Shown here piece after piece: positions 36,058-64,000 of a stretch of DNA of 64,000 bases; the stretch's first letter is position 1, and each line of letters begins with the position of its first letter. Below the pieces are notes generated by a model. The model was given only the letters and a program-made list of their open reading frames with translations, ran no database searches and was not told where the DNA came from. The translations under genes and the position numbers were made by a program. The stretch comes from Mesorhizobium amorphae CCNWGS0123 (lineage in GTDB: Bacteria; Pseudomonadota; Alphaproteobacteria; Rhizobiales; Rhizobiaceae), in NCBI RefSeq assembly GCF_001686985.1, contig NZ_CP015318.1:3532001-3596000 (forward strand), given 5' to 3'.

Positions 36058-37116
36058 TCATCCCATCCGGCCGCGCGCAGCCACCGGCAGCGTTTCCAGC
36101 ACCTTGTCGCCGTCGACCAGATGCACCTGGTCGAACAGATTGGTGACGACGCAGCAATGGTCGGGCACGACGCGCACGCGCTCGCCGATGCGCAACTTCG
36201 CATCGCCTGAAAGCGTGACATTGCCGTGCTCTTCGCTGAGGCCCGTGACCCTGGCGCCCGGGATGCCCAGCAACTCGCCGAAATCGGCCAGCCCCAGCGT
36301 GTCGCTGGACAGCGCCTTGCTGCCGGCATCGAGGATGGCCCGCGCCGGCGTCGGGTGGCTGACCACCGTCGACAGCACCGTCAGCGCACAATCGTCAAGG
36401 CCGCCGACGCCTTTGGCAACCTGGTAGCGGTCGAGATAGATGTAGGTGCCGGGCCGATACTCGGTGACGACGCTGTCCTCGCCCGAGCGCCACATATCCG
36501 GCGTGCCGCCGCTGGAGATGCGTTGGCATTCGAGGCCCGCTGCCGCCAGCGCTTGTTTGGCATCCACAAGCCACGCCTCGGCCTGCGCCGCGCGGCCGGC
36601 CGCCGGATAGGTCATCAGCCCGCCGAAGCGAAGACCCTTGGCCTTGTCGATCTCGCGCGCCAGCGCAACTGCCTCGTCGGGGCTCTGCACACCGCAGCGG
36701 CCCATGCCGGTGTCGCATTCGACCAGCACCGGCAGCGGATGGCCGGCATCGGTGAAAGTGTCGGCGAGCCCTTCCAGCGTTTCCCTGCTGTCCGTTGTCA
36801 CCGACAACGTCACGCGGCCGTGCAGCGCCTTGAGGCGCTCCAGCTTGGCGCGCCCGAGAATGTTGTAGGGCAGAAAAATATCGGCGAGGCCGGCATCGGC
36901 CATCACCTCGGCCTCGCCGATCTTCTGGCAGGTGATGCCGACCGCGCCGGCCGCAACCTGCTTCTTCGCCCAGTAGGGCAGCTTGTGGGTCTTGATATGC
37001 GGCCTGAGCTTCAGTCCATGGCGGTCGCCATGCGCCTGCGCCCGCTTGATGTTGGCTTCGGCGCGGGCGGCATCGATCAGGATCGCCGGCGTATCGAGGT
37101 CGTCTATGCTGCGCAT
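36058..37116 (-). CDS. D-threonine aldolase / D-serine dehydratase-like PLP enzyme
   Basis: A 352-aa fold-III PLP enzyme. The alanine-racemase-like barrel carries the PLP lysine in RPHIKTHK (K42), ISSGGTPDMW binds phosphate, and a C-terminal domain has VPDHCCVVTNL, where His and Cys typically bind metal in D-threonine aldolase and D-serine dehydratase. Substrate choice between D-threonine, 3-hydroxyaspartate and D-serine cannot be read from sequence alone. AAGGTGA precedes the ATG. Confidence 0.87.
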   Translation of the reverse strand: MRSIDDLDTPAILIDAARAEANIKRAQAHGDRHGLKLRPHIKTHKLPYWAKKQVAAGAVGITCQKIGEAEVMADAGLADIFLPYNILGRAKLERLKALHGRVTLSVTTDSRETLEGLADTFTDAGHPLPVLVECDTGMGRCGVQSPDEAVALAREIDKAKGLRFGGLMTYPAAGRAAQAEAWLVDAKQALAAAGLECQRISSGGTPDMWRSGEDSVVTEYRPGTYIYLDRYQVAKGVGGLDDCALTVLSTVVSHPTPARAILDAGSKALSSDTLGLADFGELLGIPGARVTGLSEEHGNVTLSGDAKLRIGERVRVVPDHCCVVTNLFDQVHLVDGDKVLETLPVAARGRMG

Positions 37117-37255
37117 GGATTGTCACCTTGAGATTTGCCTGGACTTATGGCCCCGATCGGTCCGGATGTCATGAGGCCAGCATAGAGTTTGCGTCGACAC
37201 CGGATCGGTGTTCGGCTATGCGCTGTAGGCGCCGCCTGAAGAAGGGATCACGACC

Positions 37256-37942
37256 ATGAAACGCTCCACCATCAACGACATCATCCGCGACGCCGACGCC
37301 TTCATCCGCTCGTTCGGCTATATCATGCCGCCCTTCGCCTACTGGAGCCCGGAAGAGATGAAGGCGCGCAAGGCTGATTCTGCGGCTATTTTCACCTCGC
37401 GCCTCGGTTGGGACATCACCGACTACGGCCAGGAGAAGTTCGACGAACTCGGCCTGTTCCTGTTCACCGTGCGTAACGGCGTCTACGCGGACATGAAAAA
37501 GGGCATGGGCATGCTCTATGCCGAGAAGATCATGATCTCGCGCAAGGACCAGCTGTCGCCGATGCATCGCCACAACATCAAGGCCGAGGACATCATCAAC
37601 CGCGGCGGTGGCAAGCTGGTGCTGGAACTGTTCATGCACGATCGCGACGGCGGCATCGATCCGAAGGCCGAAGTGTCGGTGCCTGTCGACGGAACCATCC
37701 ACAGATTGCCGGCCGGCGGGCTGCTGAAGCTCGATCCGGGCCAGAGCGTTACACTAATGCCGGGCGTCTGGCACGCCTTCTGGGCCGAAGGCAAGGACGT
37801 GCTGATCGGCGAGGTCTCGACCGTCAACGACGACCTCACCGACAACGTCTTCCGCGAGCCGATCGGCCGTTTTTCCAACATCGACGAGGATGTCGCGCCG
37901 CTGCATCTGCTGGTGTCGGATTACGAGAAGTGGGTGGGGTAG
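37256..37942 (+). CDS. D-lyxose/D-mannose isomerase family cupin
   Basis: A 228-aa cupin resembling D-lyxose isomerase (PF07385). Metal-site residues appear in SPMHRHNIKAED (H104, H106, E111) and in MPGVWHAFWAEG. The family interconverts D-lyxose and D-xylulose or D-mannose and D-fructose. It is divergent from the PLP enzyme gene, with no sugar transporter or kinase nearby. GAAGGGATC precedes the ATG. Confidence 0.85.
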   Translation: MKRSTINDIIRDADAFIRSFGYIMPPFAYWSPEEMKARKADSAAIFTSRLGWDITDYGQEKFDELGLFLFTVRNGVYADMKKGMGMLYAEKIMISRKDQLSPMHRHNIKAEDIINRGGGKLVLELFMHDRDGGIDPKAEVSVPVDGTIHRLPAGGLLKLDPGQSVTLMPGVWHAFWAEGKDVLIGEVSTVNDDLTDNVFREPIGRFSNIDEDVAPLHLLVSDYEKWVG

Positions 37943-45206: not shown

Positions 45207-45341
45207 TGCCTGCTCGTGGCCACCAGCGCCGCGATTGGCGCGCTTGAGGCGCGCGATCCCGCACTCGTTTGCGTGATGAAGGCGTATAATGCTCAGCGTA
45301 ATGACTGATTGCCGTCGGCAAAGGCGGGAGCACGCGAGACC

Positions 45342-46397
45342 ATGATCCCCAATCTCAACATCGTTCCCTTCGTCAGCGTCGACCACATGATGAAGCTGGT
45401 GCTGAAGATCGGCGTCGAGCGTTTTCTTACCGAGCTTGCTGCCTACATCGAGGACGACTTCCGCCGCTGGGAGGCCTTCGACAAGACGCCGCGCGTCGCC
45501 TCGCACAGCGCCGAGGGCGTCATCGAACTGATGCCGACCAGCGATGGCGAGGTCTATGGCTTCAAATATGTCAACGGCCATCCCAAGAACATGCGCGAGG
45601 GCCGCCAGACGGTGACCGCTTTCGGCATGCTGGCCGACGTCCACAATGGCTATCCGGTGCTGCTGTCGGAAATGACCATACTGACGGCGCTGCGCACGGC
45701 GGCGATGTCGGCGCTGGCGGCAAAGCACCTGGCGCCTGCCGGCGCCGATTGCATGGCGCTGATCGGCAATGGCGCCCAGGCCGAATTCCAGGCGCTGGCC
45801 TTCAAGGCGCTGCTCGGCGTGCGCAGATTGCGCTTCTTCGACATTGATCGCGCGGCGACGGAAAAATGCATCCGCAATCTCGCCGGCCTCGGCTTCGATA
45901 TGGTGGCCTGCGGAACCGCGCAAGAGGCAGTCGAGGGCGCTCAGATCATCACCACCGTCACCGCCGACAAGCAGTACGCCACCATCCTCACCGACAACAT
46001 GGTCGGCTCCGGTGTCCACATCAACGCGGTCGGTGGCGATTGTCCCGGCAAGACCGAGCTGCACCGCGACATCCTGCTGCGCTCAGACATTTTCGTCGAA
46101 TACCCGCCGCAGACCCGTATCGAGGGCGAGATACAGCAGCTTCCCGCCGACCATCCGGTCACCGAGCTGTGGCAGGTCATCACCGGCGTGGCAAAGGGCC
46201 GGCGCGAGCCCGGCCAGATCACCCTGTTCGATTCCGTCGGCTTCGCCATCGAGGATTTTTCGGCGCTGCGCTATGTCCGCGATCAACTCGCATCGACCGG
46301 CCTCTACCAGGAACTCGACATGCTGGCCGACCCCGACGAGCCGCGCGACCTGTTCGGCATGCTGCTGAGGGCGGCGGCGCCGGCGAAAATGGCTTAG
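45342..46397 (+). CDS. Ornithine cyclodeaminase
   Basis: A 351-aa member of the ornithine cyclodeaminase/mu-crystallin family, which converts L-ornithine to L-proline and ammonia with NAD+. The nucleotide-binding stretch is LIGNGAQAEFQALAFKALLG, with conserved GFKYVNGHPKN, VHINAVGGDCPGKTELH and LFDSVGFAIEDF. Length and N terminus (NLNIVPFVSVDHMMKLV) match true ornithine cyclodeaminases rather than shorter alanine-dehydrogenase-like relatives. ATG 45342 has GGGAG upstream. Confidence 0.92.
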   Translation: MIPNLNIVPFVSVDHMMKLVLKIGVERFLTELAAYIEDDFRRWEAFDKTPRVASHSAEGVIELMPTSDGEVYGFKYVNGHPKNMREGRQTVTAFGMLADVHNGYPVLLSEMTILTALRTAAMSALAAKHLAPAGADCMALIGNGAQAEFQALAFKALLGVRRLRFFDIDRAATEKCIRNLAGLGFDMVACGTAQEAVEGAQIITTVTADKQYATILTDNMVGSGVHINAVGGDCPGKTELHRDILLRSDIFVEYPPQTRIEGEIQQLPADHPVTELWQVITGVAKGRREPGQITLFDSVGFAIEDFSALRYVRDQLASTGLYQELDMLADPDEPRDLFGMLLRAAAPAKMA

Positions 46398-49289: not shown

Positions 49290-50930
49290 TCAGCTCTCCA
49301 GCCAGACCTTCTCGAAATGCTGCTCGAGCGACTGGTGCTGCTCGCAGCCATGCACGCCTTTGCGGTAGGTGCGGTAGACCGAGCGCCAGTAAGGCTGGAT
49401 GATGATGCCGGAGTCGCGCAGATTCTGCTCGATCTTGGCCATGATCTCCTTGCGCGCCTTGGCGTCGGGCATTGCCAGCGCCCTGTCGAGCAGTTCGTCG
49501 AACTCCTTGTTGGCATAGGCACTTTCGTTCCAGGCGGCGCCCGATTTGTAGGCCAATGCCAGCACCTGGACGCCGAGCGGCCGTCCCAGCCACTCGGTGC
49601 AGGAGAACGGGTATTTGCTCCAGTCGTTCCAGAAGGTCGCGGCCGGCAGCACGGTGCGCTTGATCTTCAAGCCTGCCTCGCGCATCTGCGCGGCGATCGC
49701 ATCGCCGGTGCTCTTTTGCCATTCGACATCGACCGAGATCAACTCATACTCGTGGTCGGCCTTGCCGGCCTCAGTGAGCAGCTTCTTCGCCTCATCCACA
49801 TCACGCTTGGCCGGGCCGATATCGGCATATTCGGGGTGCACCGGGCCGACATGGTGGTTGTCGGCCGGCTTGCCGCGACCGTCGATGCCAAGTTTCAGCA
49901 CGGCTGAATTGTCGACGGCAAGCTGGGCGGCACGGCGCACCTTGGCGTCGTCATAGGGCGCATTGCCGACATTGAAGCGCGCCACGATAGTCGAGCCGGT
50001 GGCGATCTCGGAATTCTCGAGCCCCATGTCTTCGGTCTGCGACACGGCATCGGAGGCGGTCTCGTGGTCGGTGTCGATCTCGCCGGATTCGAAGGCCGAC
50101 AGCATGGCGTTGGGATCGGAGCCGTAATCGACCCATGTGATGCCGTCGAGATGGAACTCGCCCTTCCACCACGGCTTGTCCTTGCGGCGTACCTCCGCAC
50201 TCGTCTCGGCATCCCATTTCACCAGTTCGCAAGGACCGGTGGTGATCGCCAGCGCCTTCATCGGGTCGCCGTCGCCATCATAGGAGCGGTGCATGATCAG
50301 CGCCGGATAGTCTGCCATGCCGGCGATCAGCGAGATGTCGGGCTTGGGCAAATTGAGCTTCACGGTGAAGTCGTCGACTTTCTCGATGCTGCCGTCGACC
50401 GGCTTCTTGGTATCGGCATTGACCAGCGCGCCCATGCGCGCGGCGACCGAATTGCCGGCGACCGAGGCGTCGCACCAGCGCGTCAGATTGTGGACGACGT
50501 CGTCGGCGTTGAACGTATCACCGTTCGACCAGGTGATGCCCTTGCGCACATGAAGCGTCAGTGTCTTTGCGTCGTCGCTGGTCTCCCAGCTTTCCAGCAG
50601 CCACGGCTCGAAGCTGAAGTCGGTGTTCCAGCGCACCAGATATTCGTTGCAGTGGCGCGCGACATTCGACATTTCGACGCCGTCGAAGGTGCGCGGATCC
50701 TTGAATCCCTTGACGTTCATGGCGACGCGGAGTGTGCCGCCCTTTTTCGGTTCCTCAGCGCGGGCGGGCGAGGGGGCAAGGCCGCCGAGCGCCAGCGCAC
50801 CGGCCGCGCTGACGCCGAACCCGGCCATCAGGGCGAGGTACTCGCGCCTATTCATGGCGCCTTTCTTGAAATCGTCGGCGATCGGCTTTGCGCGCGGGTG
50901 CAGCTTTCGGTCGGTCAGCATGAACTTCAT
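49290..50930 (-). CDS. Family 5 (peptide-type) ABC transporter substrate-binding protein
   Basis: A 546-aa periplasmic binding protein of the DppA/OppA class. The N terminus has an unusually long leader before [20 protein letters not shown], which resembles a twin-arginine signal, then the mature start [14 protein letters not shown]. Domain motifs are [31 protein letters not shown] and [21 protein letters not shown] precedes ATG 50930. No permease or ATPase genes adjoin it. It lies downstream of the esterase/cysteine hydrolase/M24 group and may supply their substrate. Confidence 0.88.
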
Positions 50931-51197
50931 CGTCGTTCCCTCCTGTTGGTGCATGTCGCCAAAAGCATGCTTTCGGGCCTGACCCGAGGGTGCGCTGCGG
51001 TTTTGGGGCAACGACATGCACGCAAGACCAGGTCGCTCCGGTTGCCGCCAGACGCGGGGGGAGGATGCGGTTCACCGGAGCGCCATTGCCTCAGCCGATG
51101 ATAGGGCGGGCTTACGCGGGGAAATGTTCGCTTTTCCGCAGTTCTTGTGCGCTGTTCCGCAGCGGGCTGCGAGGACGGCGAGACAACGAGATGGCGT

Positions 51198-52175
51198 TCA
51201 GGACGGCTGGTTGTTCTTGCCCAGCATGGTCACGGAAGCGATGGCCGAGAGGATATCCAGGAAAGCCTCGCCGGCGCGCGGCACGCCCTTGCGGGCGCGC
51301 AAGAAACTGTGCACGAGGCGCGGCTCCTCCTGCCACCAGGCCGAGCCGCCGGCGGCAACGATGCGGTCGCGATAGGCCTCGCCGTCCGACGATAGCGGGT
51401 CGCATTCCGCCGTAATGACGAAGGTCGGCGGCAGGCCGGAGAAATCACCGTCGCGCAACGGCGAAAAGGTCGGATCGTCGGGTGATTGTCCGGGTGCAGA
51501 GCGGATGCGGCGATAGAAATCGATATCGCCGAGCGAAAGAAGCGGCGCATTGGCGTGCTCGATGTAGGAGCGGCCGGTCTCGTCGCCGCCGAGGCCGGGA
51601 TAGATCAGCACCTGTCCGGCCGCGCGGCGCGGGCTGCGGCGCGTCGCATGCGCGACGGCGGCGGCCAGATTGCCGCCGGCGCTCTCGCCGCACAGCACGA
51701 TCGGCAGGGCGCTGGTCGCGGCCGCCCACTCGAACACCGCCAGCGCATCGTCGAAGGCGGCGGGATGAAGATGCTCCGGTGCCAGCCGGTAGTCGGCAGA
51801 AAACACCTCGAACCCGGTGGCTGCGCAGATCTCGGCGCAGATGTCGTCATGGCTGTCGAGCCCGCCCAGCACGAAGCCGCCGCCATGATAGTAGACGACG
51901 ATCGCCTGCGGCGTCTTGCCGGCGAGCCGGTAGCGCCGGACAGGAATGTCGCGAGCGGCGCGACCGACCAGGCCGTCACTGGCTGACACGCCCGGCGGAT
52001 GGCCCTGGTGGAAGGCCCGGCACATCGCGTCATAGACCGCCCTTTGCTCGGAGATCGGCAACTCGGCGATTTCGGGCGGATACCACTCATTGACCCGGTC
52101 GATATAGAGCCACAAAGCCGGATCGAGCCGCCTTGCGTATTTCCCGCGCCTGGTCATGTGGTGGACCGTGCCCAT
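51198..52175 (-). CDS. Alpha/beta hydrolase, hormone-sensitive-lipase family
   Basis: A 325-aa esterase-like protein. The oxyanion motif YYHGGGFVLGG includes H97-G100, the nucleophile S165 lies in CGESAGGN, and Asp/His of the triad are expected in ECDPLSSDG and RLVHSFLR. The physiological ester or amide is unknown. It lies 17 bp downstream of the cysteine hydrolase gene, so it is probably part of one operon. Confidence 0.9.
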   Translation of the reverse strand: MGTVHHMTRRGKYARRLDPALWLYIDRVNEWYPPEIAELPISEQRAVYDAMCRAFHQGHPPGVSASDGLVGRAARDIPVRRYRLAGKTPQAIVVYYHGGGFVLGGLDSHDDICAEICAATGFEVFSADYRLAPEHLHPAAFDDALAVFEWAAATSALPIVLCGESAGGNLAAAVAHATRRSPRRAAGQVLIYPGLGGDETGRSYIEHANAPLLSLGDIDFYRRIRSAPGQSPDDPTFSPLRDGDFSGLPPTFVITAECDPLSSDGEAYRDRIVAAGGSAWWQEEPRLVHSFLRARKGVPRAGEAFLDILSAIASVTMLGKNNQPS

Positions 52176-52192
52176 CGCATCCGATCCTCGCG

Positions 52193-52870
52193 TCAGAGGT
52201 CGTCGTAAAGCCCGGCCGCGTTCTCATAGGTGAAGCGCAGCGGCACCGAACCCTCGACCTGCCAGACGCTGACCGTGTCGCCCGACAGCAGCCGGCAGGC
52301 ATCCACGGTGTTGGCGACAGCGCCGCCATAGAGCCGGTTGGCGAGGTTGAGGATGGCGGTCTGGTGCATCGCTGCACTGGCGCTGCCGCAGGCGTCCTTG
52401 ACCAGCAGCACGCGAAAGCCGAGCGCCACCGCATCCCTGACCGTGGCGTCGATGCAGGCCTCGGTCCACACGCCGGCGATCACCAGCCATTCGATGCCGC
52501 GCGACTTCAAATCGTCCGCCGCGGACCCTCCACCGAAGGCGCTGGCCTCGGTCTTGACCAGCATCGTCTCGCCGGCAGCCGGCGCCACTTCCGCGCAGAT
52601 CGCGGTGAGCGGATCGTCCTTGTCGGAGAAGGCCGACTTGCCATCGGCATCGACCGGATGGAACGGTCGTGCCTTGGCGAGATCGACGATGTAGGCCCAG
52701 TGATAAAGCGGCACGAAATTGCGCCGCGCTGCTTCTTGCAGACGCTGGACGTTGGCGAGGATGTCGCCGAACCCTTCGACCAGATAGCGCTTGTCCTGGC
52801 GATGCTCTTCCTGGAGATCGATGAACACCGCCGCCACGGTGCCTCTGCTGATCGAGATCGGGCGCTTCAT
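52193..52870 (-). CDS. Cysteine hydrolase (isochorismatase / N-carbamoylsarcosine amidase-like)
   Basis: A 225-aa protein with the catalytic triad of the isochorismatase-like hydrolases: D18 (VFIDLQ), K106 (LVKTEAS) and C139 (TEACIDATVRDA). Members include nicotinamidase, N-carbamoylsarcosine amidase and ureidoacrylate amidase, so amide hydrolysis is likely but the substrate is not fixed. Its ATG directly abuts the stop of the M24 gene, showing co-transcription. Confidence 0.9.
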   Translation of the reverse strand: MKRPISISRGTVAAVFIDLQEEHRQDKRYLVEGFGDILANVQRLQEAARRNFVPLYHWAYIVDLAKARPFHPVDADGKSAFSDKDDPLTAICAEVAPAAGETMLVKTEASAFGGGSAADDLKSRGIEWLVIAGVWTEACIDATVRDAVALGFRVLLVKDACGSASAAMHQTAILNLANRLYGGAVANTVDACRLLSGDTVSVWQVEGSVPLRFTYENAAGLYDDL

Positions 52871-54175
52871 TCAAACGTGCCTGTCAAGGAAATCGTCCTC
52901 ATAGGGGAAGCGCGACAGAAGCTCGGTGCCGGTCTCGGTGATCAGGATCTCGTCCTCCAGCTTGACGCCCTCGCGGCCGCCCTTCTCGCCAATATAGCTT
53001 TCGACGCTGACCACCATGCCGGGCACGATGATGCCGTCGCGGCCATAGGTCTCGTAGTCCATGGCATGCGCGATGAACGGCGTCTCGCCATGCATGCCGA
53101 CACCGTGCATGACCGAGGTGTAGCGCTGGTCGACGAAGCGGTCGGGGATCTTCCACGCCTTTTCGGCGATCTCGCGAAAAGCCATGCCGGGCTTTACGAT
53201 CGAGATGTTGTGCTGAACCTGGTCATGCGCCATGCGGTAGAGCGATTTCTGATAATCGGTCGGTCTGCCCGGCCCGCAGCGGAAGGTGCGCGAGAAGTCG
53301 GAATAATAGCCGTAGCAGCCGATCGTGTCCGTATCGAGCGCCAAGAGTTCGCCCGGCCTGATCTTGCGGCCGCTCGCCTCGTTGAACCACGGGTTCGTGC
53401 GTTGGCCCGAAGTGAGCAGGCGCGTCTCGATGAACTCGCCGCCCTGGCGGATCACCTCGTGGTACATGATGGCGAACAGGTCGTTTTCGGACACGCCGGG
53501 TTTTATCGCCTCGCGCACGGCTGACACGGCGGCCTCGGCGCCGGCCATCGACACCTGCAGGCATTTCACTTCCTCCGGCGTCTTCACCGCGCGCACCGCC
53601 AGGATTTCGCCCTGGCAATCCCTGACCTCGCAGCCGCGCTTTTCAAGCGCCAGCGCTTGCAGATGGCCGCAGCGGTCGAGGCCGAGCTTCATCGAGCCGC
53701 CGCCGTGCTTTTTCAAGAGCTCGGCGATCTCGTCGGCGAACGGGCCGGCGGTCTCGTCGTCGCGGCCCGAGACGGAGGACCAGACCAGCTTGGAAGGACG
53801 CGCCTCGTCGATCGTGTCGAGCACCATGGAGACATGGTAGCTTTGCGGATATTCGAACAGCACGATCGGCCCTTCGGTCGGGATGAAGAAATAGCGGGTC
53901 GAATTGCGCAGGAAATAGCCGAACATGTTGCGCGAGCCGGTGGCGTAGCGCTGGTTGTAGGGATCGAACAGCACGATACCGCCATAGCCTGCCTCGCGCA
54001 TCCAGGCGCGCAGCTTTGCCAGACGCCCTTTGCGCAACGCATCCGCATCGATGAAGGACGGCTCGGTGTCCGACAGCCACATGCCGCCGGCCGGATCGGC
54101 CGCGGCCGGGTGGCGCATGCGGTCCTTGAAGTCCACGTCCTCGGTGCTGTCGGGGTCGAAAACGACGATGCTCAT
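52871..54175 (-). CDS. M24 family (creatinase/Xaa-Pro peptidase fold) protein, DddP-like
   Basis: A 434-aa protein of the pita-bread M24 fold. Metal ligands are conserved: D281, D283, D293, H357, E392 and E407. Sequence blocks GGEFIETRLLTSGQRTNPWF, LDTDTIGCYGYYSDFSR and MHGVGMHGETP match the DMSP lyase DddP more than ordinary prolidases. The Asp that DddP uses for DMSP cleavage (in its MHGVGLCDEWP block) is Gly363 here, so DMSP lyase activity is doubtful; hydrolysis of a small amide or C-N compound is an alternative. ATG 54175 follows AGGAGGCACCC. Confidence 0.85.
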   Translation of the reverse strand: MSIVVFDPDSTEDVDFKDRMRHPAAADPAGGMWLSDTEPSFIDADALRKGRLAKLRAWMREAGYGGIVLFDPYNQRYATGSRNMFGYFLRNSTRYFFIPTEGPIVLFEYPQSYHVSMVLDTIDEARPSKLVWSSVSGRDDETAGPFADEIAELLKKHGGGSMKLGLDRCGHLQALALEKRGCEVRDCQGEILAVRAVKTPEEVKCLQVSMAGAEAAVSAVREAIKPGVSENDLFAIMYHEVIRQGGEFIETRLLTSGQRTNPWFNEASGRKIRPGELLALDTDTIGCYGYYSDFSRTFRCGPGRPTDYQKSLYRMAHDQVQHNISIVKPGMAFREIAEKAWKIPDRFVDQRYTSVMHGVGMHGETPFIAHAMDYETYGRDGIIVPGMVVSVESYIGEKGGREGVKLEDEILITETGTELLSRFPYEDDFLDRHV

Positions 54176-54261
54176 GGGTGCCTCCTGAAGCGGCGAAGAT
54201 GGGCCATGCGTCATGCAAACGCTGTGCGGAATCCCGCAAATGTCGTGCCGGATGCCGCACC

Positions 54262-55257
54262 CTAGTGCCGCCGCATCCCCTTCGGCGCATGCCCATGCTC
54301 TTCCCTGAACGCCCGCGCAAAGCTCGACATCGAGGCAAAGCCGCAGGCTAAAGCCACGTCGCGCACCATCAGGGTGGAGTGCGCCAGCAGGTCGGCGGCG
54401 CGCTTCAGCCTGAGGCGCCGGTAGTAGCCATTGGGCGAGATGCTGAGTTCGGTTCGAAAATTCCGCTCGAGCTTGTCCGGCGAAACGCCGAGCCTTGTCG
54501 CCAATTCCGCCATGCCGAGCCGCTCCTCCACCGCGTCCTCCATGATGGCGATGGCCGACAGCACCAGCTCGTTCTGCACGCCGGTGCGCAGGCGCAGCGG
54601 CATCAGCTTGCGGTCCACACTCGATCGCAAAGGGCTGTGCACGAACCATTCGGCAACGCCGGCGGCGAGCTCGGCGCCGTAGTCGCGGGTGATGATCTCC
54701 AGCATCATGTCGAGGCTGCCGACGCCGCCGGCCGACGTAAAACGCTTGCGGTCGATGACATAGAGATCGCGTCTCAGCTCGATGTCCGGAAACGCCTCGG
54801 TGAAGGCCGCCTGGCTGGTCCAGTGCAAGGTGCAGGCATGGCCGTCGAGCAGGCCCGCGCGGGCGAGGAAGAACGCCGCATCCGCCACCGCACCAATATC
54901 GGCGCCGCCTCTGAGGCTCTTGCGGATCCAGCTCAACGCCTCGTCGGCGACGAGATGGTCTGCATCGCCGCCGGAGCAAACGACGATGCGGTCGACCTTC
55001 GGTGCATCGCCGGCAAAAAAGCCCGGCTGGATGACGACGCCGTTCGAGGCTTCGACCGGACCCTTGCCGGCGCCAACGATCACCCAGCGATAGCATTCCT
55101 TCTTGGCCAGCACATTGGCCGCGCGCAACGGCTCGATCAGCGAGCTGAACGCCATCATCGGAAAACCGGGGAAGACCAGCACGGCGAAGGTGAGGGGAGC
55201 CTCGGCCGCCAACGGCTGCGTGCGCTCACGTTTTCGATTGGCGAGGGTGGCGTTCAC
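54262..55257 (-). CDS. GlxA family transcriptional regulator (DJ-1/PfpI plus AraC domains)
   Basis: About 331 aa. The N-terminal class-I amidotransferase-like domain (FAVLVFPGFPMMAFSSLIEPLRAAN, with ADAAFFLARAGLLDG) serves as ligand sensor, and a C-terminal AraC helix-turn-helix pair ends in DVALACGFASMSSFARAFREEHG. This architecture includes GbdR, CdhR and SouR, activators for betaine, carnitine and sarcosine. GTG 55257 gives a normal length, though its ribosome binding site is weak. It lies 86 bp upstream of the M24 gene and likely controls that operon. Confidence 0.88.
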   Translation of the reverse strand: MNATLANRKRERTQPLAAEAPLTFAVLVFPGFPMMAFSSLIEPLRAANVLAKKECYRWVIVGAGKGPVEASNGVVIQPGFFAGDAPKVDRIVVCSGGDADHLVADEALSWIRKSLRGGADIGAVADAAFFLARAGLLDGHACTLHWTSQAAFTEAFPDIELRRDLYVIDRKRFTSAGGVGSLDMMLEIITRDYGAELAAGVAEWFVHSPLRSSVDRKLMPLRLRTGVQNELVLSAIAIMEDAVEERLGMAELATRLGVSPDKLERNFRTELSISPNGYYRRLRLKRAADLLAHSTLMVRDVALACGFASMSSFARAFREEHGHAPKGMRRH

Positions 55258-57847: not shown

Positions 57848-59281
57848 ATGTCCCACAATCTGCAGTTCTACATCGATGGTGCCTGGGTCGATCCGGTCGT
57901 GCCGAACACGCTCGACGTCATCGATCCGTCGAACGAAGACGCCTTCGCGCAGATCTCGCTCGGCTCCAAGGCCGATGTCGACAAGGCGGTGGCCGCCGCC
58001 AGGCGCGCCTTCAACACATTCGGCTTCACCGAGGTCGCCGAGCGGCTCGACCTGTTGAACCGCATCATCGACATCTACAAGAAGCGCAGCGCCGATCTTG
58101 CCGTTGCCGTGTCGCGCGAAATGGGCGCGCCGCGCCAGATGGCGCTGGACAGCCAGGTCGGCGTCGGCCTCGCGCACCTGCAGAAGATGGCCGAGGTGCT
58201 GAAGAGTTTTCAGTTCCGCCACATCAGGGGCTCTTCGCTGGTGGTGAAGGAGCCGATCGGCGTCGTCGGCCTGATCACGCCGTGGAACTGGCCGCTGAAC
58301 CAGATCACCTGCAAGGTCGGTCCCGCACTTGCCGCCGGCTGCACCATGGTGCTGAAGCCGTCGGAAATCGCGCCGCTCGACGCCATCATCTTCGCCGAGA
58401 TTCTGGACGAGGCCGGCGTGCCGAAGGGCGTCTTCAACCTCGTCAATGGCGACGGGCCGGGCGTCGGCCAGGCGCTCTCCAGCCACCCGGATGTCGACAT
58501 GATGTCGTTCACGGGCTCGACCCGCGCCGGCATCCTGGTCGCCAAGGCCGCCGCCGACACAGTCAAGCGCGTGCATCAGGAGTTGGGCGGCAAGTCGGCC
58601 AACATCCTATTCCCCGATGTCGACCTCGAAAAGGCCGTCAGCAAGGGTGTCGCCGGCTGCTTTAGCAACAGCGGCCAGTCCTGCAACGCGCCAACCCGCA
58701 TGTTCGTGCCGCGCGACCGCCACGACGAAGCGGCCGCTTACGCCAGGACGGCGGCGGAAAAATTCACGGTCGGCCCGGCCGATGCGCCCGGATCAAAGCT
58801 CGGCCCGGTGGTCAGCCAGATCCAGTTCGACAAGATCCAGGACCTGATCCAGGCCGGCATCGACGAAGGCGCCACCCTGGTCGCCGGCGGCCCCGGCCGT
58901 CCCGCCGAACTCAACCGCGGCTACTATGTCCGGCCGACCGTCTTCGCCGACGTCACCCACGACATGCGCATCGCCCGCGAAGAAATCTTCGGGCCGGTGC
59001 TGGCGATCATGCCCTATGACAGCGTCGACGAGGCGATCCATACCGCCAACGACACCGTCTACGGCCTCGCCTCCTACATCCAGGCCAAGGACATCCAGAA
59101 GGCTCGCGAAGTCGCCGCCCGCATGCGCACCGGCAACGTCTACATCAACTACCCGACCTGGGACGCCGGCCTGCCGTTCGGCGGTTACAAGCAGTCCGGC
59201 AACGGCCGCGAATATGCTGAGTATGGGTTGGAGGATTTCCTGGAGATCAAGGGCATCGCGGGGTACGAGGCGGCGGAGTAG
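57848..59281 (+). CDS. Aldehyde dehydrogenase family protein
   Basis: A 477-aa NAD(P)+-dependent aldehyde dehydrogenase. The cofactor/active-site region TPWNWPLNQ, the general base Glu in HQELGGKSANI, the nucleophile Cys in SNSGQSCNAPTR, and EEIFGPVLAIMPYD are present. The subgroup resembles broad-range bacterial ALDHs; no substrate-defining partner is adjacent. ATG 57848 follows GAGGAGGAAACC; the upstream in-frame extension is rejected. Confidence 0.92.
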   Translation: MSHNLQFYIDGAWVDPVVPNTLDVIDPSNEDAFAQISLGSKADVDKAVAAARRAFNTFGFTEVAERLDLLNRIIDIYKKRSADLAVAVSREMGAPRQMALDSQVGVGLAHLQKMAEVLKSFQFRHIRGSSLVVKEPIGVVGLITPWNWPLNQITCKVGPALAAGCTMVLKPSEIAPLDAIIFAEILDEAGVPKGVFNLVNGDGPGVGQALSSHPDVDMMSFTGSTRAGILVAKAAADTVKRVHQELGGKSANILFPDVDLEKAVSKGVAGCFSNSGQSCNAPTRMFVPRDRHDEAAAYARTAAEKFTVGPADAPGSKLGPVVSQIQFDKIQDLIQAGIDEGATLVAGGPGRPAELNRGYYVRPTVFADVTHDMRIAREEIFGPVLAIMPYDSVDEAIHTANDTVYGLASYIQAKDIQKAREVAARMRTGNVYINYPTWDAGLPFGGYKQSGNGREYAEYGLEDFLEIKGIAGYEAAE

Positions 59282-59297
59282 GCACGAGGCGGTTGGG

Positions 59298-59343
59298 GCC
59301 GGCGTTTGGCGCCGGCTGTGATGGGCGCGGTCTAGCCGCGCCC
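59298..59343 (+). terminator. Two tandem hairpins after the aldehyde dehydrogenase gene
   Basis: GCCGGCG/CGCCGGC (loop TTTGG, 59298-59316) and GGGCGCGG/CCGCGCCC (loop TCTAG, 59323-59343) are perfect stems directly after the gene. They lie just before the base composition drops. Confidence 0.5.
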
Positions 59344-59453
59344 CTGCTATTTGAAGGCGGCGTTTCGCGAAAGGCTGCAAGTATATCTTGGAGGTGCAGA
59401 GGCGGTTCCGCAGTCAAATGCTGGATTTGTCGATCTGTGCTAGCTTGTCGCCA

Positions 59454-59579
59454 ATGAATTCGAAAACTTGGAGTCGATTCCTTCCGACGCGGAGAAATGG
59501 ACCTTGTCCGTGCAAGAGCGGGCTGCGGTTCAAGCATTGTCATGGGCGCTTCAACACCTCAGCGACCATGGACGAATGA
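59454..59579 (+). pseudogene. SEC-C zinc-motif N-terminal fragment cut off by an in-frame TGA
   Basis: ATG 59454 opens 41 codons with the SEC-C motif RNGPCPCKSGLRFKHCHG (CxC...CH type). Translation stops at TGA 59577-59579, but the same frame continues without interruption as the 487-aa ORF downstream (IEQQLNELMRVREAEEI). SEC-C proteins of this kind normally carry a long C-terminal domain beginning with a RKQQQGLGRP-like segment, matching RKRQQGYGRP here. A single nonsense change is the simplest explanation; a tiny separate SEC-C protein is less likely. Confidence 0.7.
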
Positions 59580-59600
59580 ATTGAACAGCAACTCAACGAG

Positions 59601-61064
59601 TTGATGCGGGTCAGAGAAGCCGAGGAGATCCTTCGCAAACGTCAGCAAGGTTATGGTAGGCCAATGCTGACGTCCCTATACAATGGCGTTCGGGTTGTAG
59701 TTGTTGGGAGGCGGATGGTTCATTCGCCTAGTTGGCAATTTGTATCCGACTTCCTAATCGATAATCTTATGACTGTTTTCGGTCGAGAGTGGGGCGCCAA
59801 TGCCTCTCAAACGATTGCAGATCATATGCTTTTTAGCTGGTTGGACGGCCTTGGTGAAGCACGAAAGGAAGTCGGAGAAGGTGTATTACTCCCGCCCAGG
59901 GGAAATGTGTCTGCCTTAACTCGTCTCGCCTACGCTCTTTACCTCCTTGAGCACAACGATAAGCCGCAGCAAAACCTCCTAACCCGGCTGAGACATCCCG
60001 TTAATTTCGCACCCGCCGTGTACGAGGCGCTAGTGGCGTCGGCATTTGCCCTGGCCGGCGCGCGGATCGATGGCGCTGAGGATGAAACAGGCGGCGCTCC
60101 TAAACCTGAGTTCTTTGCGACATTCCGAAATGGACTTATCTACGCAGTCGAGGCGAAACGAAAGAAAAGTTGGAAATCCCCGTTTGACTTGAACAGCGAT
60201 GCGTTTGTCGACGAATTGCAGGGCTGGTTACGTGACAAGCTATACAAAGCTTCAAAGAAAGCTCTGGCAAACCCCGTTTATTGGTTTGAGTTAGGGATCG
60301 ACGCAGAAATCAATCCGGATGAGGTAGATCGTCTTCGCCAAGTCGTCGTTGCAGGTGTTACGAACGCCGAAACAATCACTGTTAACGGGGGGCCTCCGTC
60401 TCCGGCCTACGTTTTCGTGACCAACAACCAGGACTTGGTCAATGAGGAAGCATCGAATCTAGGTTTTTTCGCTTTGCTCATGGGATTTGCCATGGACAAT
60501 TTCCGCGAAGGGGTCGTCGACATCGAGACTGCGATGGACAATCACGACATACACCGTCCCATTCGGTGGGTGCATGACTGCTTGTCCTTGGTACAGCGAG
60601 TGCCTAACAGCTTCGAAGGCGTGCCCGATGAGTTGTTGGACGATCAGGGCCAGCCGATAGACACATTAAGGATTGGAAAGCTAATCCCATACCCCAGAAG
60701 CGACGGCACGGAGGGCGTCGGCCGAATCCGAGAAATTGCAACCTTGGACCAACAGGCAATGGTCGTGTTGGTGGACGAACAAACCAATCAGCAGGTCTTC
60801 GCCAAACTGCTCCTCAAACCCCAGGAGGCAGAAGCGGCCAAGAAATTCGGAAACGCGATTTTCGGAAAGCCCGAAGGACCTCAAAGGGTCATAGGCGATC
60901 GCCTGAGACTCTATGATCGCATGCTTGAAATATATGCTGATTATGACCGCAAATCCCTTCTGAATCAGATTAGGAAGCATCCAAACCTAATCGATTTCGA
61001 AAACCTGGATACGGAAAATCTAAGGATAAGAGTGGCGAGAGAGATAGCCAAATCCATTGGATAA
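59601..61064 (+). CDS. C-terminal part of a SEC-C protein, possible nuclease-fold domain, AT-rich
   Basis: 487 codons from TTG 59601 (ATG at 59604), without a good ribosome binding site. It is in frame with the SEC-C fragment, one TGA away. Seen: RKRQQGYGRPMLTSLYNGVRVVVVG near the start, and PEFFATFRNGLIYAVEAKRKK (E170, E184, K186), whose E...ExK layout resembles a PD-(D/E)xK nuclease core. The C-terminal 150 residues are helical and unrecognised. Base composition is clearly lower in GC than the neighbours (60421-60480 has 27 G/C of 60). Function is unknown; it may be a remnant if translation does not restart. Confidence 0.65.
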   Translation: MMRVREAEEILRKRQQGYGRPMLTSLYNGVRVVVVGRRMVHSPSWQFVSDFLIDNLMTVFGREWGANASQTIADHMLFSWLDGLGEARKEVGEGVLLPPRGNVSALTRLAYALYLLEHNDKPQQNLLTRLRHPVNFAPAVYEALVASAFALAGARIDGAEDETGGAPKPEFFATFRNGLIYAVEAKRKKSWKSPFDLNSDAFVDELQGWLRDKLYKASKKALANPVYWFELGIDAEINPDEVDRLRQVVVAGVTNAETITVNGGPPSPAYVFVTNNQDLVNEEASNLGFFALLMGFAMDNFREGVVDIETAMDNHDIHRPIRWVHDCLSLVQRVPNSFEGVPDELLDDQGQPIDTLRIGKLIPYPRSDGTEGVGRIREIATLDQQAMVVLVDEQTNQQVFAKLLLKPQEAEAAKKFGNAIFGKPEGPQRVIGDRLRLYDRMLEIYADYDRKSLLNQIRKHPNLIDFENLDTENLRIRVAREIAKSIG

Positions 61065-61198: not shown

Positions 61199-61295
61199 GC
61201 AGGCGCAGTCTGTAACGCGCGAAGCGGGCGGCTATGCGCCGCGAACCTTGCCCATCCCGCATTGCACAATCTCCTCGCATCAGCAAAATACAGCC

Positions 61296-61898
61296 ATGGT
61301 CCGCTCCTCACTCGCCGTTCTGGTGATCGACGAAAACCGCATCCGTGCCTCGATCATTGAGGCCGGGCTGCGGGAGGCTGGCCATGAGCGGGTCACGGTC
61401 ATCCATGACGTCACCGGCATTGCGCGCCGCATTGCCGAGATCGAACCTGATGTCATCGTCATCGATCTCGAAAACCCGAACCGCGACATGCTGGAAAACA
61501 TGTTCCAGCTCTCGCGCGCGGTGAAGCGGCCGATCGCCATGTTCGTCGACCGCTCCGACCAGGCCTCGATCGAGGCGGCGGTCGATGCCGGCGTGTCGGC
61601 CTATGTCGTCGATGGTCTGCGGCAAGAGCGCGTCAAGCCGATCCTCGACATGGCGGTCAGCCGTTTCAACGCCTTCTCGCGCATGGCGCGCGAGCTGGAG
61701 GAGGCGCGTAGCGAATTGGAGAGCCGCAAGGTCATCGACCGCGCCAAGGGCATTTTGATGAAGTCGCGCGGTTTGAGCGAGGAGGCGGCCTACACGCTGC
61801 TGCGCAAGACGGCGATGAACCAGAACCGCAAGATCAGCGACATCGCCCAAAGCCTGGTGACTGCCGCCGGGTTGCTTGGGCCGCTGGAGGACGAGTGA
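61296..61898 (+). CDS. nasT: Nitrate-responsive ANTAR antiterminator NasT
   Basis: A 200-aa RNA-binding regulator: a pseudo-receiver domain (LAVLVIDENRIRASIIEAGL, VIVIDLENPNRDMLE) joined to an ANTAR domain (SRKVIDRAKGILMKSRGLSEEAAYTLLRKTAMNQN). In the known system NasT binds two hexaloop hairpins in target leaders and prevents termination; NasS blocks it without nitrate. ATG 61296 has no strong ribosome binding site. Its stop overlaps the nasS GTG. Confidence 0.9.
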   Translation: MVRSSLAVLVIDENRIRASIIEAGLREAGHERVTVIHDVTGIARRIAEIEPDVIVIDLENPNRDMLENMFQLSRAVKRPIAMFVDRSDQASIEAAVDAGVSAYVVDGLRQERVKPILDMAVSRFNAFSRMARELEEARSELESRKVIDRAKGILMKSRGLSEEAAYTLLRKTAMNQNRKISDIAQSLVTAAGLLGPLEDE

Positions 61899-63133
61899 GC
61901 ATGGGCCACGAAATCACCGCCGGCTTCATGCCGCTCTTCGACAGCGCCGTGCTGGTCGCCGCGCGCGAGATGGGCTTTGCCGCGCGCGAGGGCATCGAGC
62001 TCAAGCTGCAGCGCGAGACGTCCTGGGCCAACATCCGCGACCGCATCGCCATCGGCCATTTCGACGTTGCCCATATGCTGGGGCCGATGCCTTTGGCCTG
62101 CAATCTCGGCCTGACGCCGCTGGCCTCCGAGACGATCGTGCCGTTCTCGCTGGGCCTGGGCGGCAATTGCGTCACCGTATCCAACGCCGTCTGGCAAGGC
62201 ATGGCGGCGCATGGCGCCGCGCCAGACCTCGACCCGGCGCGCGCGGGTGCAGCGCTCCGTGCGCTGATCCGGGAGCGGGCAGGGGCCGGCCGCGATCCGC
62301 TGCGCTTTGCGGTTGTGCATCCGCATTCCGGGCACAATTACGAGCTGCGCTATTGGCTCGCCGCCTGCGGCGTCGATCCGACCCAAGAGATCGAGATCGT
62401 CATCGTGCCGCCGCCCTTCATGGCCGATGCTTTAGCCGCCGGCCGCATCGACGGCTATTGCGTCGGCGAACCGTGGAACAGCGCCTCGGTCGCCGCCGGC
62501 ACCGGCCATATCGTCACCGTTAAGGCGCTGCTGTGGCGCAATAGCCCGGAGAAGGTGGTTGGTGTGCGCAAGGCGTGGGCGCAGGAGAACCCGGATGCGC
62601 TGGCGGCGCTGCTGCGCGCCCTGCATCATTCGGCCCGCTGGTGCCAGGATCCGGCCAACCACCAGGAATTGGCCGCGGTGATGGCGCAGCCCGGCTTCCT
62701 CGGCCTGCCGCCGGCAGTGCAGATGCCGATCCTGACCGGCCATCTCGATCTGGGCGGCGGCGCGGAGTGGGCGATCGACGATTTCTTCGTGCCTTTCGAC
62801 AAGGCAGCGAACTTTCCCTGGAAGAGCCACGCGCTGTGGTTTTACACGCAGATGGTGCGCTGGGGGCATGTCGAGCACACGCCTGAGAACCTTGCTATCG
62901 CCAGGGACTGCTACCGCCCCGACCTCTACCGCTCGGCACTGAAGCCGCTTGGCGTGGCGCTGCCCGGCGCCAATGCCAAGGTCGAGGGCGCGCTGAAGGC
63001 CGCGACGCCGGTCGGTTCGGCGGGGGCAAGCCTGGTGCTTGGTCCCGACGGTTTCTTCGACGGTCAGATCTTCGATCCCGATGAGATCGACGCCTACATT
63101 GCCGGCCAGAAATTGGTCCGCGCTGAAGCCTGA
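61895..63133 (+). CDS. nasS: Cytosolic nitrate sensor NasS (NrtA-like)
   Basis: A 412-aa NrtA/CmpA-type binding protein without a signal peptide, as expected for the cytosolic sensor NasS. Typical stretches are AGFMPLFDSAVLVAAREMGFA, HFDVAHMLGPMPLA and FMADALAAGRIDGYCVGEPWN. GTG 61895 overlaps the nasT stop (GTGA); an ATG at 61901 is also possible. Coupled translation fits formation of a NasS-NasT complex. Confidence 0.9.
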   Translation: MSMGHEITAGFMPLFDSAVLVAAREMGFAAREGIELKLQRETSWANIRDRIAIGHFDVAHMLGPMPLACNLGLTPLASETIVPFSLGLGGNCVTVSNAVWQGMAAHGAAPDLDPARAGAALRALIRERAGAGRDPLRFAVVHPHSGHNYELRYWLAACGVDPTQEIEIVIVPPPFMADALAAGRIDGYCVGEPWNSASVAAGTGHIVTVKALLWRNSPEKVVGVRKAWAQENPDALAALLRALHHSARWCQDPANHQELAAVMAQPGFLGLPPAVQMPILTGHLDLGGGAEWAIDDFFVPFDKAANFPWKSHALWFYTQMVRWGHVEHTPENLAIARDCYRPDLYRSALKPLGVALPGANAKVEGALKAATPVGSAGASLVLGPDGFFDGQIFDPDEIDAYIAGQKLVRAEA

Positions 63134-63158
63134 TCATTTTCGCGCCATTCTTGTGCAT

Positions 63159-63175
63159 TGCACAAAAATTGTGCG
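63159..63175. promoter_or_regulatory. Candidate NtrC binding site
   Basis: TGCAC-N7-GTGCG matches the NtrC palindrome TGCAC-N7-GTGCA at nine of ten fixed positions. A second overlapping palindrome, TTGTGCATTGCACAA, begins at 63151. The site is about 110-125 bp upstream of the sigma-54 promoter, the usual enhancer distance. Confidence 0.6.
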
Positions 63176-63282
63176 CGCGCTTGCGCTAATGAACAATCTT
63201 TGGCTAGCGCGCCCTGCGGGCGGGCGCGCCGCCATTGGGGCATGTCGTTGATTTAATTCATGTTTGTCATCCATTCTGAAAC

Positions 63283-63298
63283 TGGCACGGTTCCTGCT
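63283..63298 (+). promoter_or_regulatory. Sigma-54 promoter of nrtA
   Basis: TGGCACGGTTCCTGCT matches the consensus TGGCACGrNNNTTGCW with one change. GG (63284-63285) and GC (63296-63297) are separated by the required 10 bp. Transcription should start near 63309, leaving a leader of about 180 nt before nrtA. Confidence 0.75.
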
Positions 63299-63333
63299 TT
63301 GTCATAGGCAGGCTCTTCTAGGGTCACGGAACG

Positions 63334-63368
63334 GGCGTCCAATGGCGGGCGCCACAGGCAAAGCTGCC
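63334..63368 (+). promoter_or_regulatory. Two-hairpin ANTAR (NasT) target in the nrtA leader
   Basis: Hairpin 1 is GGCGTCC-AATGGC-GGGCGCC (7 bp, 63334-63353). Hairpin 2 is GGC-AAAGCT-GCC (63357-63368), a short stem. Both loops are six nucleotides with A at position 1 and G at position 4, the known ANTAR recognition pattern. The 3' side of hairpin 2 runs into GCCGC, complementary to the GCGGC before the downstream T-run, so the two structures could be exclusive. Confidence 0.65.
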
Positions 63369-63403
63369 GCTCAGGTCAACACGCGATCCCGGATGGACGG
63401 ACG

Positions 63404-63429
63404 CGCGCGGCCTGGCCGGCGGCTTTTTT
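63404..63429 (+). terminator. Leader terminator ahead of nrtA
   Basis: A GC-rich stem (CGGC-CTG-GCCG, with possible longer-range GCCGC/GCGGC pairing) is followed by six T residues at 63424-63429. It lies 61 nt before the nrtA start and is the expected target of NasT antitermination. Confidence 0.55.
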
Positions 63430-63490
63430 GTTTTGATCGAACACGCAATCGACGGCGCCGATCCCAAGCGGCGCCCAACCGGAGATGACG

Positions 63491-64000
63491 ATGACGAAAC
63501 GCATCAAGACCGAAGCCCCTCTCGAGGGCATGACCCGCCGCAATTTCCTGATGGCAAGCGCTGCCACCGCGGCAACCCTGGCGGCGGCGCGTGCGCTGCT
63601 GCCCTCCGGCGCCTATGCGGCGCCGGCCGCTCCGGAAGTGACCGGCGCCAAGCTCGGCTTCATCGCGCTGACCGACGCCGCCCCGCTGATGATCGCCAAG
63701 GAAAAGGGTCTGTTCGCCAAGTTCGGCATGCCCGATGTCGAGGTGCTGAAGCAGGCCTCCTGGGGCGCGACGCGTGACAATCTGATGCTCGGCGGCGAGG
63801 CCAACGGCATCGACGGCGCCCACATCCTCACGCCGATGCCCTACCTGATGCACACCGGCAAGGTGACGCAGAACAACCAGCCGCTGCCGATGGCGATCGT
63901 GGCGCGGCTCAACTACGACTGCCAGGGCATCTCGGTCGCGCAGGAATATGCCGCGACCGGCGTCGGCCTCGACGCCTCCAAGCTGAAGGAGGCCTTCGCC
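63491..64000 (+). CDS. nrtA: Nitrate ABC transporter substrate-binding protein, partial
   Basis: The first 170 codons of an NrtA/CmpA-type protein; the gene runs off the window. A twin-arginine signal (MTRRNFLMASAATAATLAAA) ends near PSGAYA, followed by KLGFIALTDAAPLMIAKEKGLFAKFG and the nitrate-pocket region. ATG 63491 has GGAGATGACG upstream. It is the first gene of the expected nitrate uptake and assimilation operon under NtrC, sigma-54 and NasT control. Confidence 0.93.
   Translation, partial: MTKRIKTEAPLEGMTRRNFLMASAATAATLAAARALLPSGAYAAPAAPEVTGAKLGFIALTDAAPLMIAKEKGLFAKFGMPDVEVLKQASWGATRDNLMLGGEANGIDGAHILTPMPYLMHTGKVTQNNQPLPMAIVARLNYDCQGISVAQEYAATGVGLDASKLKEAFA

Follow-up and report, generated by a model that had tools for sequence, protein, structure and literature searches.

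Which compound do five neighbouring genes of Mesorhizobium amorphae CCNWGS0123 serve? The genes are located in the window analysed here, a stretch of 64,000 nucleotides of contig NZ_CP015318.1 (positions 3,532,001–3,596,000; assembly GCF_001686985.1, genome size 7.34 Mb in 5 contigs), and coordinates below are those of the window unless preceded by C1. They encode a regulator (REG), an M24-family metalloenzyme (M24), an isochorismatase-fold cysteine hydrolase (ICH), an alpha/beta hydrolase (EST) and a substrate-binding protein (SBP) of an ATP-binding cassette (ABC) transporter. A preliminary description had regarded them as an uncharacterised, conserved catabolic set, and our comparisons bear this out. 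We propose, with a probability of about 0.5, that the set is an inducible module for the uptake and breakdown of a betaine-class methylated ammonium compound. The most informative feature is the kinship of M24 with the dimethylsulfoniopropionate (DMSP) lyase DddP, which the preliminary description had overlooked.

Layout and occurrence of the gene set

The identity and position of the five open reading frames (ORFs), all on the minus strand, were confirmed with the ORF list and Pfam. REG (54262–55257) is a GATase1-like/AraC regulator of the GlxA family, with a DJ-1/PfpI domain (PF01965) and an AraC-type helix-turn-helix domain (PF12833); the GTG at 55257 is one among several candidate start codons, so its 5' end is approximate. 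M24 (52871–54175, 434 amino acids; PF00557 and PF01321) begins with an ATG at 54175, which has an AGGAGG just 5' of it (54181–54186, minus strand), a probable ribosome-binding site judging by its sequence, and this start is identical to that annotated in Shinella and Sinorhizobium meliloti. ICH (52193–52870; PF00857) and EST (51198–52175; PF07859, Abhydrolase_3), an alpha/beta hydrolase of the hormone-sensitive lipase type with HGGG and GESAGG motifs, follow closely. SBP (49290–51017; PF00496, SBP_bac_5) is a family-5 ABC substrate-binding protein with a twin-arginine-like leader; its true start is probably near 50930, as aligned homologues begin at about residue 24–27 of the ORF. By coordinates, the intergenic gaps are about 86 bp (REG–M24), 0 (M24–ICH), 17 bp (ICH–EST) and at least 180 bp (EST–SBP).

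The preliminary description had named co-occurrence across genomes as one of the points on which its proposal would depend, and co-occurrence holds. We retrieved 80 named loci, which are the best 80 of 453 matches and therefore closely related to one another; 14 with a flank shorter than 5.5 kb on a side were dropped. From alignment A2, L239 was excluded on account of a stop codon. Genes were scored at 40% identity (REG, ICH, EST and SBP) or 45% (others) anywhere in flanks of up to 9 kb, strict adjacency not being required. Around the M24 relatives in the remaining 66 loci, ICH was present in 66, REG in 65, EST in 59, SBP in 53, proX in 7, and MttB and FAD/GcvT in 4 each. REG was matched twice in some of these loci, probably through a spurious leader on the REG query, and was counted per locus. 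Within the genus, REG, M24, ICH and EST occurred together in all 11 Mesorhizobium loci retrieved, with SBP adjacent in six; in the other five, an SBP orthologue (89–91% identity) was found 14–63 kb away, in one case with an in-frame TGA. Two genomes of other genera (G397 and G334) had no SBP orthologue at that same threshold. REG-M24-ICH-EST is thus a conserved cassette.

An orthologue of M24 (at least 92% identity) was found in 33 of 37 genus genomes, the present one included, and one at 79% identity or more in 19 of 394 family genomes, where the next-best matches were at 45–47%. A class-wide sample of 385 genomes added three with M24 relatives at 59–65%. Most of the named close relatives belong to Mesorhizobium; Sinorhizobium, Shinella, Pseudaminobacter, Nitratireductor, Aquamicrobium, Chelativorans and one Rhizobium are also among the hosts. 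Of 177 plasmid records with a match, 65 encode M24 at 90–95% identity, and the S. meliloti matches listed were at 92.2%.

A DddP relative that lacks the proposed catalytic base

The closest solved structures to M24 are those of DddP (PDB 4rzy and 4b28; E-values 1.3e-70 to 1.6e-67), while the best matches to prolidases (1e-21), creatinases (2e-9) and ectoine hydrolase (6e-6) were far weaker. By sequence comparison, M24 is no ordinary peptidase, because its nearest solved relative is a DMSP lyase, and we rejected its identification as a plain peptidase. Ectoine hydrolase DoeA was likewise discarded (54 bits with NF038259, cut-off 575; 29 bits with TIGR02993, cut-off 613), as was creatinase, to which the similarity is weak. 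The best NCBIfam model for M24 is that of DddP (NF043017), which it matches with 312 bits, below the curated cut-off of 600.

By sequence, M24 shares the fold of DddP and all six of its metal ligands (D281, D283, D293, H357, E392 and E407), and Tyr366 is also kept. It differs at the position of DddP Asp377, where it has Gly363 (codon at 53087–53089, minus strand, calculated from the 54175 start). Passages of a study of DddP (PMC4108388) give the six metal ligands and favour Asp377 as the catalytic base, with Tyr366 as the alternate, and a review (PMC5395565) likewise assigns the removal of the proton to an aspartate.

The replacement is not confined to this protein. In an alignment and tree of 71 rows, including 12 proteins above the DddP cut-off, the six metal ligands and Tyr366 were conserved in 71 of 71. 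Position 377 was Asp in 35 rows, among them all 12 DddP rows, Gly in 35 and Asn in one. The 35 Gly rows make up one side of a tree branch with support of 100/98 and include the M24 studied here, next to which stands a second subclade of 15 (44–50% identity). Since the Gly rows form a single supported clade, the DddP base appears to have been lost once while the metal site was retained, as far as this sample shows.

Could M24 nevertheless be a true DddP, so that the cluster splits DMSP into dimethyl sulfide and acrylate? The closest structure, the best model and the retained metal ligands and Tyr366 speak for it, but the score is about half of the cut-off, and position 377 holds Gly throughout the clade of M24, whereas the 12 rows above that cut-off have Asp there, so DMSP lysis via the proposed mechanism is unlikely for this protein. 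We rejected DMSP lysis as the role of the cluster and regard this explanation as extremely improbable. A search of the present genome with the DddP model found no protein above the cut-off; the best was the paralogue of locus L037, with 475 bits. Structure predictions of M24 and SBP from alignments of 13 and 11 rows had mean predicted local distance difference test (pLDDT) values of 38.9 and 45.9, and these models were unusable.

Other arrangements of such genes were seen. Three loci (L101, L104 and L105) each contain one Gly-type and one Asp-type DddP-like M24 gene together with MttB and FAD/GcvT, and two of them (L104 and L105) additionally carry a homologue of betaine-homocysteine methyltransferase. 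In a further locus (L124), a stretch of about 15 kb beside MttB contains five DddP-like M24 genes, one of them with Asn at the Asp377 position.

Regulator, hydrolases and the creatinine hypothesis

For REG, the best curated model is that of GbdR, the choline/betaine regulator (NF052371). The match covers most of the protein, but its 281 bits miss the 480-bit cut-off. Together with the relatives of several cassette genes among betaine-demethylation genes (see below), this agrees with the earlier idea of a methylated or quaternary amine. EST scored 226 bits against the LipP1 model (cut-off 350).

The top PDB match of ICH is N-carbamoylsarcosine amidohydrolase (1nba), in line with the resemblance noted in the preliminary description. 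Both have the isochorismatase fold, and Asp18, Lys106 and Cys139 of ICH align with positions of 1nba that we take to be the catalytic triad of the family. The resemblance is not a close one: the match has only 55 bits, is nearly tied with 3ot4, and ICH reaches no curated family cut-off among the NCBIfam models. A creatine- or creatinine-type pathway, with M24 as a creatinase-like enzyme and ICH as an N-carbamoylsarcosine amidase, could draw on this match and on the M24 fold of creatinases. Against it stand the weakness and near tie of the ICH match, the far lower similarity of M24 to creatinases than to DddP and the metal site that M24 retains. We consider such a pathway highly unlikely, and the creatinine-like substrate suggested earlier is not upheld.

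ICH was present in 43 of the 394 family genomes, including all 19 with an M24 orthologue and 24 without M24. Loci were retrieved from 20 of these 24 (four were left out). The 20 loci contained MttB in 13 cases, FAD/GcvT in 14, Dpp genes in 11 and PreA with a gene that we call PreT-like, our own naming, in nine; the usual order was Dpp, MttB, FAD/GcvT, ICH, and SBP lay within the retrieved stretch in only one of the 20. The present genome holds a Dpp-MttB-FAD/GcvT locus without ICH, and its sole ICH match at the threshold is the cassette copy.

The independent occurrence of ICH in 24 of 43 genomes, and the absence of EST and SBP from some loci, would suit a view in which the genes are linked yet serve more than one pathway, with ICH, EST and SBP as general scavengers and the tie to methylated amines incidental. 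REG-M24-ICH is almost invariant, however, and even where M24 is absent, 13 of 20 ICH loci have MttB nearby, so that we hold this view to be improbable.

Binding protein and a candidate permease elsewhere on the chromosome

SBP matches the SBP_bac_5 domain with 223 bits and has the family-5 fold of OppA, DppA and DppE, but it meets none of the curated cut-offs for peptide-binding proteins among the NCBIfam models. In the sequence alignment, its Arg479 takes the place of an Asp of OppA and DppE that presumably binds the amino end of the peptide, and its Trp476 is invariant among the 21 homologues aligned. This pattern suggests a carboxylated cation rather than a peptide as the ligand.

These residues also bear on the possibility that the genes serve peptide use, with SBP importing dipeptides, M24 acting as an Xaa-Pro-type peptidase and ICH and EST acting on the products. 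The SBP_bac_5 and M24 folds allow this, and relatives of M24 are publicly annotated as 'Xaa-Pro peptidase family protein'. The E-values of M24 (1e-21 for prolidases versus 1e-70 for DddP), the Arg in place of the OppA/DppE Asp, whose role we have assumed above, and the demethylation genes that adjoin SBP paralogues count against it. We judge peptide use to be unlikely, and the dipeptides proposed earlier find no support in the aligned binding residue.

The location of the permease, left open by the preliminary description, can be suggested from one locus (L096) in which EST, REG, M24, ICH, SBP, DppB, DppC and DppDF occur together. The DppB of this locus has a single close homologue in the present genome, with 60% identity, at C1:4,943,314–4,944,342; others are at 38% or less. 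This candidate lies elsewhere on the chromosome, in the neighbourhood of an SBP paralogue, DppC, a fused ATPase and MttB. The genes that follow are 79–93% identical to sister-genus genes for FAD/GcvT, PreT-like, PreA, RutR-like, omega-aminotransferase, carbamoylase and dihydropyrimidinase proteins. The sister-genus copies of PreA, the aminotransferase, the carbamoylase and the dihydropyrimidinase are above curated cut-offs, and that of the RutR-like protein is below.

SBP has four close paralogues in the genome (53–57% identity). Their neighbours are, respectively, MttB and a corrinoid protein; a trimethylamine dehydrogenase (TMADH)-like protein and a GlxA-type regulator without MttB; MttB and FAD/GcvT; and MttB and the permease. 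With five such binding proteins and one close permease, it is suggested that several SBPs share a single permease.

Two related observations were made. Roughly 1–10 kb before the start of the window, in a locus that itself extends into the window (L106, C1:3514000–3532500), genes for MttB, an SBP paralogue, a B12-binding (corrinoid) protein, a mandelate-racemase-family protein and a TMADH-like oxidoreductase stand in a row. Reductive pyrimidine genes (PreT-like, PreA and others) adjoin Dpp-MttB-FAD/GcvT in several family genera (L130–L149, and L109 and L150 of the present genome).

The sister locus with its beta-alanine genes makes beta-alanine betaine, the nitrogen analogue of DMSP, a testable candidate substrate and a special case of the betaine-class proposal. 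The DddP-type scaffold of M24 is compatible with it, the Dpp-MttB-FAD/GcvT(-ICH) locus adjoins PreT-like and PreA genes in 9 of 20 loci, and the present genome adds omega-aminotransferase, carbamoylase and dihydropyrimidinase genes there, converging on beta-alanine. But the cassette itself is not beside those genes, this substrate requires neither an amidase nor an esterase, and beta-elimination is disfavoured by the missing base. We consider it quite improbable as the substrate.

A candidate pathway for a methylated ammonium compound

Our proposal of a betaine-class compound draws on the neighbourhood of the cassette in other hosts. On plasmids of S. meliloti, Sinorhizobium sp. K101 and Shinella, MttB is followed by REG, M24 and ICH and then by genes for a betaine-type ABC transporter and for enzymes of the mandelate-racemase and Ldh families, in that order, with FAD/GcvT nearby; the MttB match of K101 consists of two overlapping, unannotated pieces. 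Two intermediate loci (L086 and L088) combine SBP and EST with the betaine ABC and racemase-family genes. L088 has no REG, and its genome encodes an MttB (89%) on the same contig as M24 and about 10 kb from it. The present genome has eight MttB genes, all away from the cassette and none adjoining it. By our arithmetic, the stretches within 10 kb of these eight genes make up about 2% of the genome. Three of the four SBP paralogues lie in them, as do the two other DddP-like M24 genes of the genome.

Clusters for glycine betaine demethylation of the MttB/MtgB type, as described in parts of PMC12478193, resemble the Sinorhizobium and Shinella loci, in which MttB, FAD/GcvT and a betaine transporter adjoin the cassette. 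They differ from the present locus, which lacks an adjoining MttB and adds M24, the amidase and the esterase. A salt study of M. alhagi (PMC4302635) reports induction of mttB, and its main text contains none of the terms 'peptidase M24', 'isochorismatase' and 'extracellular solute-binding'.

In the pathway that we envisage, REG would sense the compound and then turn on M24, ICH and EST. SBP would bind the compound in the periplasm and deliver it to the family-5 ABC permease encoded at C1 ~4,939,755–4,944,342. M24, as a member of the DddP branch with a binuclear metal site but no DddP base, would most likely hydrolyse a C–N bond of the compound after import. ICH and EST would next take off an amide and an ester or acyl group, and the methylated amine may then be demethylated by an MttB-type corrinoid methyltransferase and FAD/GcvT, whose genes would be those within the cluster itself in Sinorhizobium and Shinella and, in the present genome, those at other loci. 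That the compound belongs to the betaine-type methylated ammonium compounds seems rather probable to us; the role of M24 as a hydrolase is put forward tentatively.

Several observations weigh against this pathway. MttB was near the cassette in only 4 of the 66 loci. Among 19 genomes (one of which, G003, has no M24 orthologue), the nearest counterpart of the Sinorhizobium-cluster MttB reached at least 84% identity in 3; 14 of the 19 had only versions at 63–67%. G258 and G272 keep the cassette without such an MttB at that threshold, the latter having one at 49%. A rule that the cassette is always accompanied by a Sinorhizobium-type MttB was tested on these 66 loci and 19 genomes and failed. In our own count on the tree set, in which 12 DddP loci have short flanks, MttB was near 8 of 34 Gly-type genes, compared with 13 of the 23 Asp-type genes whose flanks could be used. 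As MttB is commoner beside Asp-type genes, its association is a property of the DddP-like family at large and does not come with the missing base. A family-5 binding protein and an M24 fold are also compatible with peptides. The case for a methylated amine is therefore one of partial lines that converge and not a strict rule.

A more far-reaching proposal, which we regard as doubtful, is that the Gly-type M24 clade is an undescribed family that arose once in the DddP branch by loss of the base. It would catalyse metal-dependent C–N cleavage on a betaine-type compound and open an unreported methylated-amine pathway of most Mesorhizobium genomes searched and of S. meliloti pSymA, with several family-5 SBPs sharing one permease.

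Other genes of the window

About 3 kb from SBP, an ornithine cyclodeaminase is encoded at 45309–46397 (plus strand; 586 bits, curated cut-off 350). At 36058–37942, a gene for an alanine-racemase-like protein with a D-serine-dehydratase domain adjoins a D-lyxose isomerase gene. An ORF of 487 amino acids at 59601–61064 (plus strand) has no Pfam or PADLOC match at the default threshold and lies in a stretch of lower GC content (0.565 over 59000–59999). At 61248–64000 (plus strand), an ANTAR response regulator gene precedes one for an NMT1_2-type protein and another SBP-like ORF; from the family names, we take these to be probably the start of a nitrate-assimilation cluster.

Significance

The cassette consists of known kinds of parts in a new arrangement. 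Our search of the open-access literature, covering titles, the beginnings of abstracts and some passages, found no account of the cassette or of a Gly-type relative of DddP. If the proposed function is correct, the cassette would provide nodule and soil bacteria with a hitherto undescribed pathway for a methylated compound of plant or soil origin, and M24 would be another use of the DddP scaffold. DddP-like matches in soil bacteria could then not be counted as DMSP lyases before the residue at the Asp377 position has been checked. The copy on pSymA of S. meliloti makes the cassette testable in a laboratory strain.

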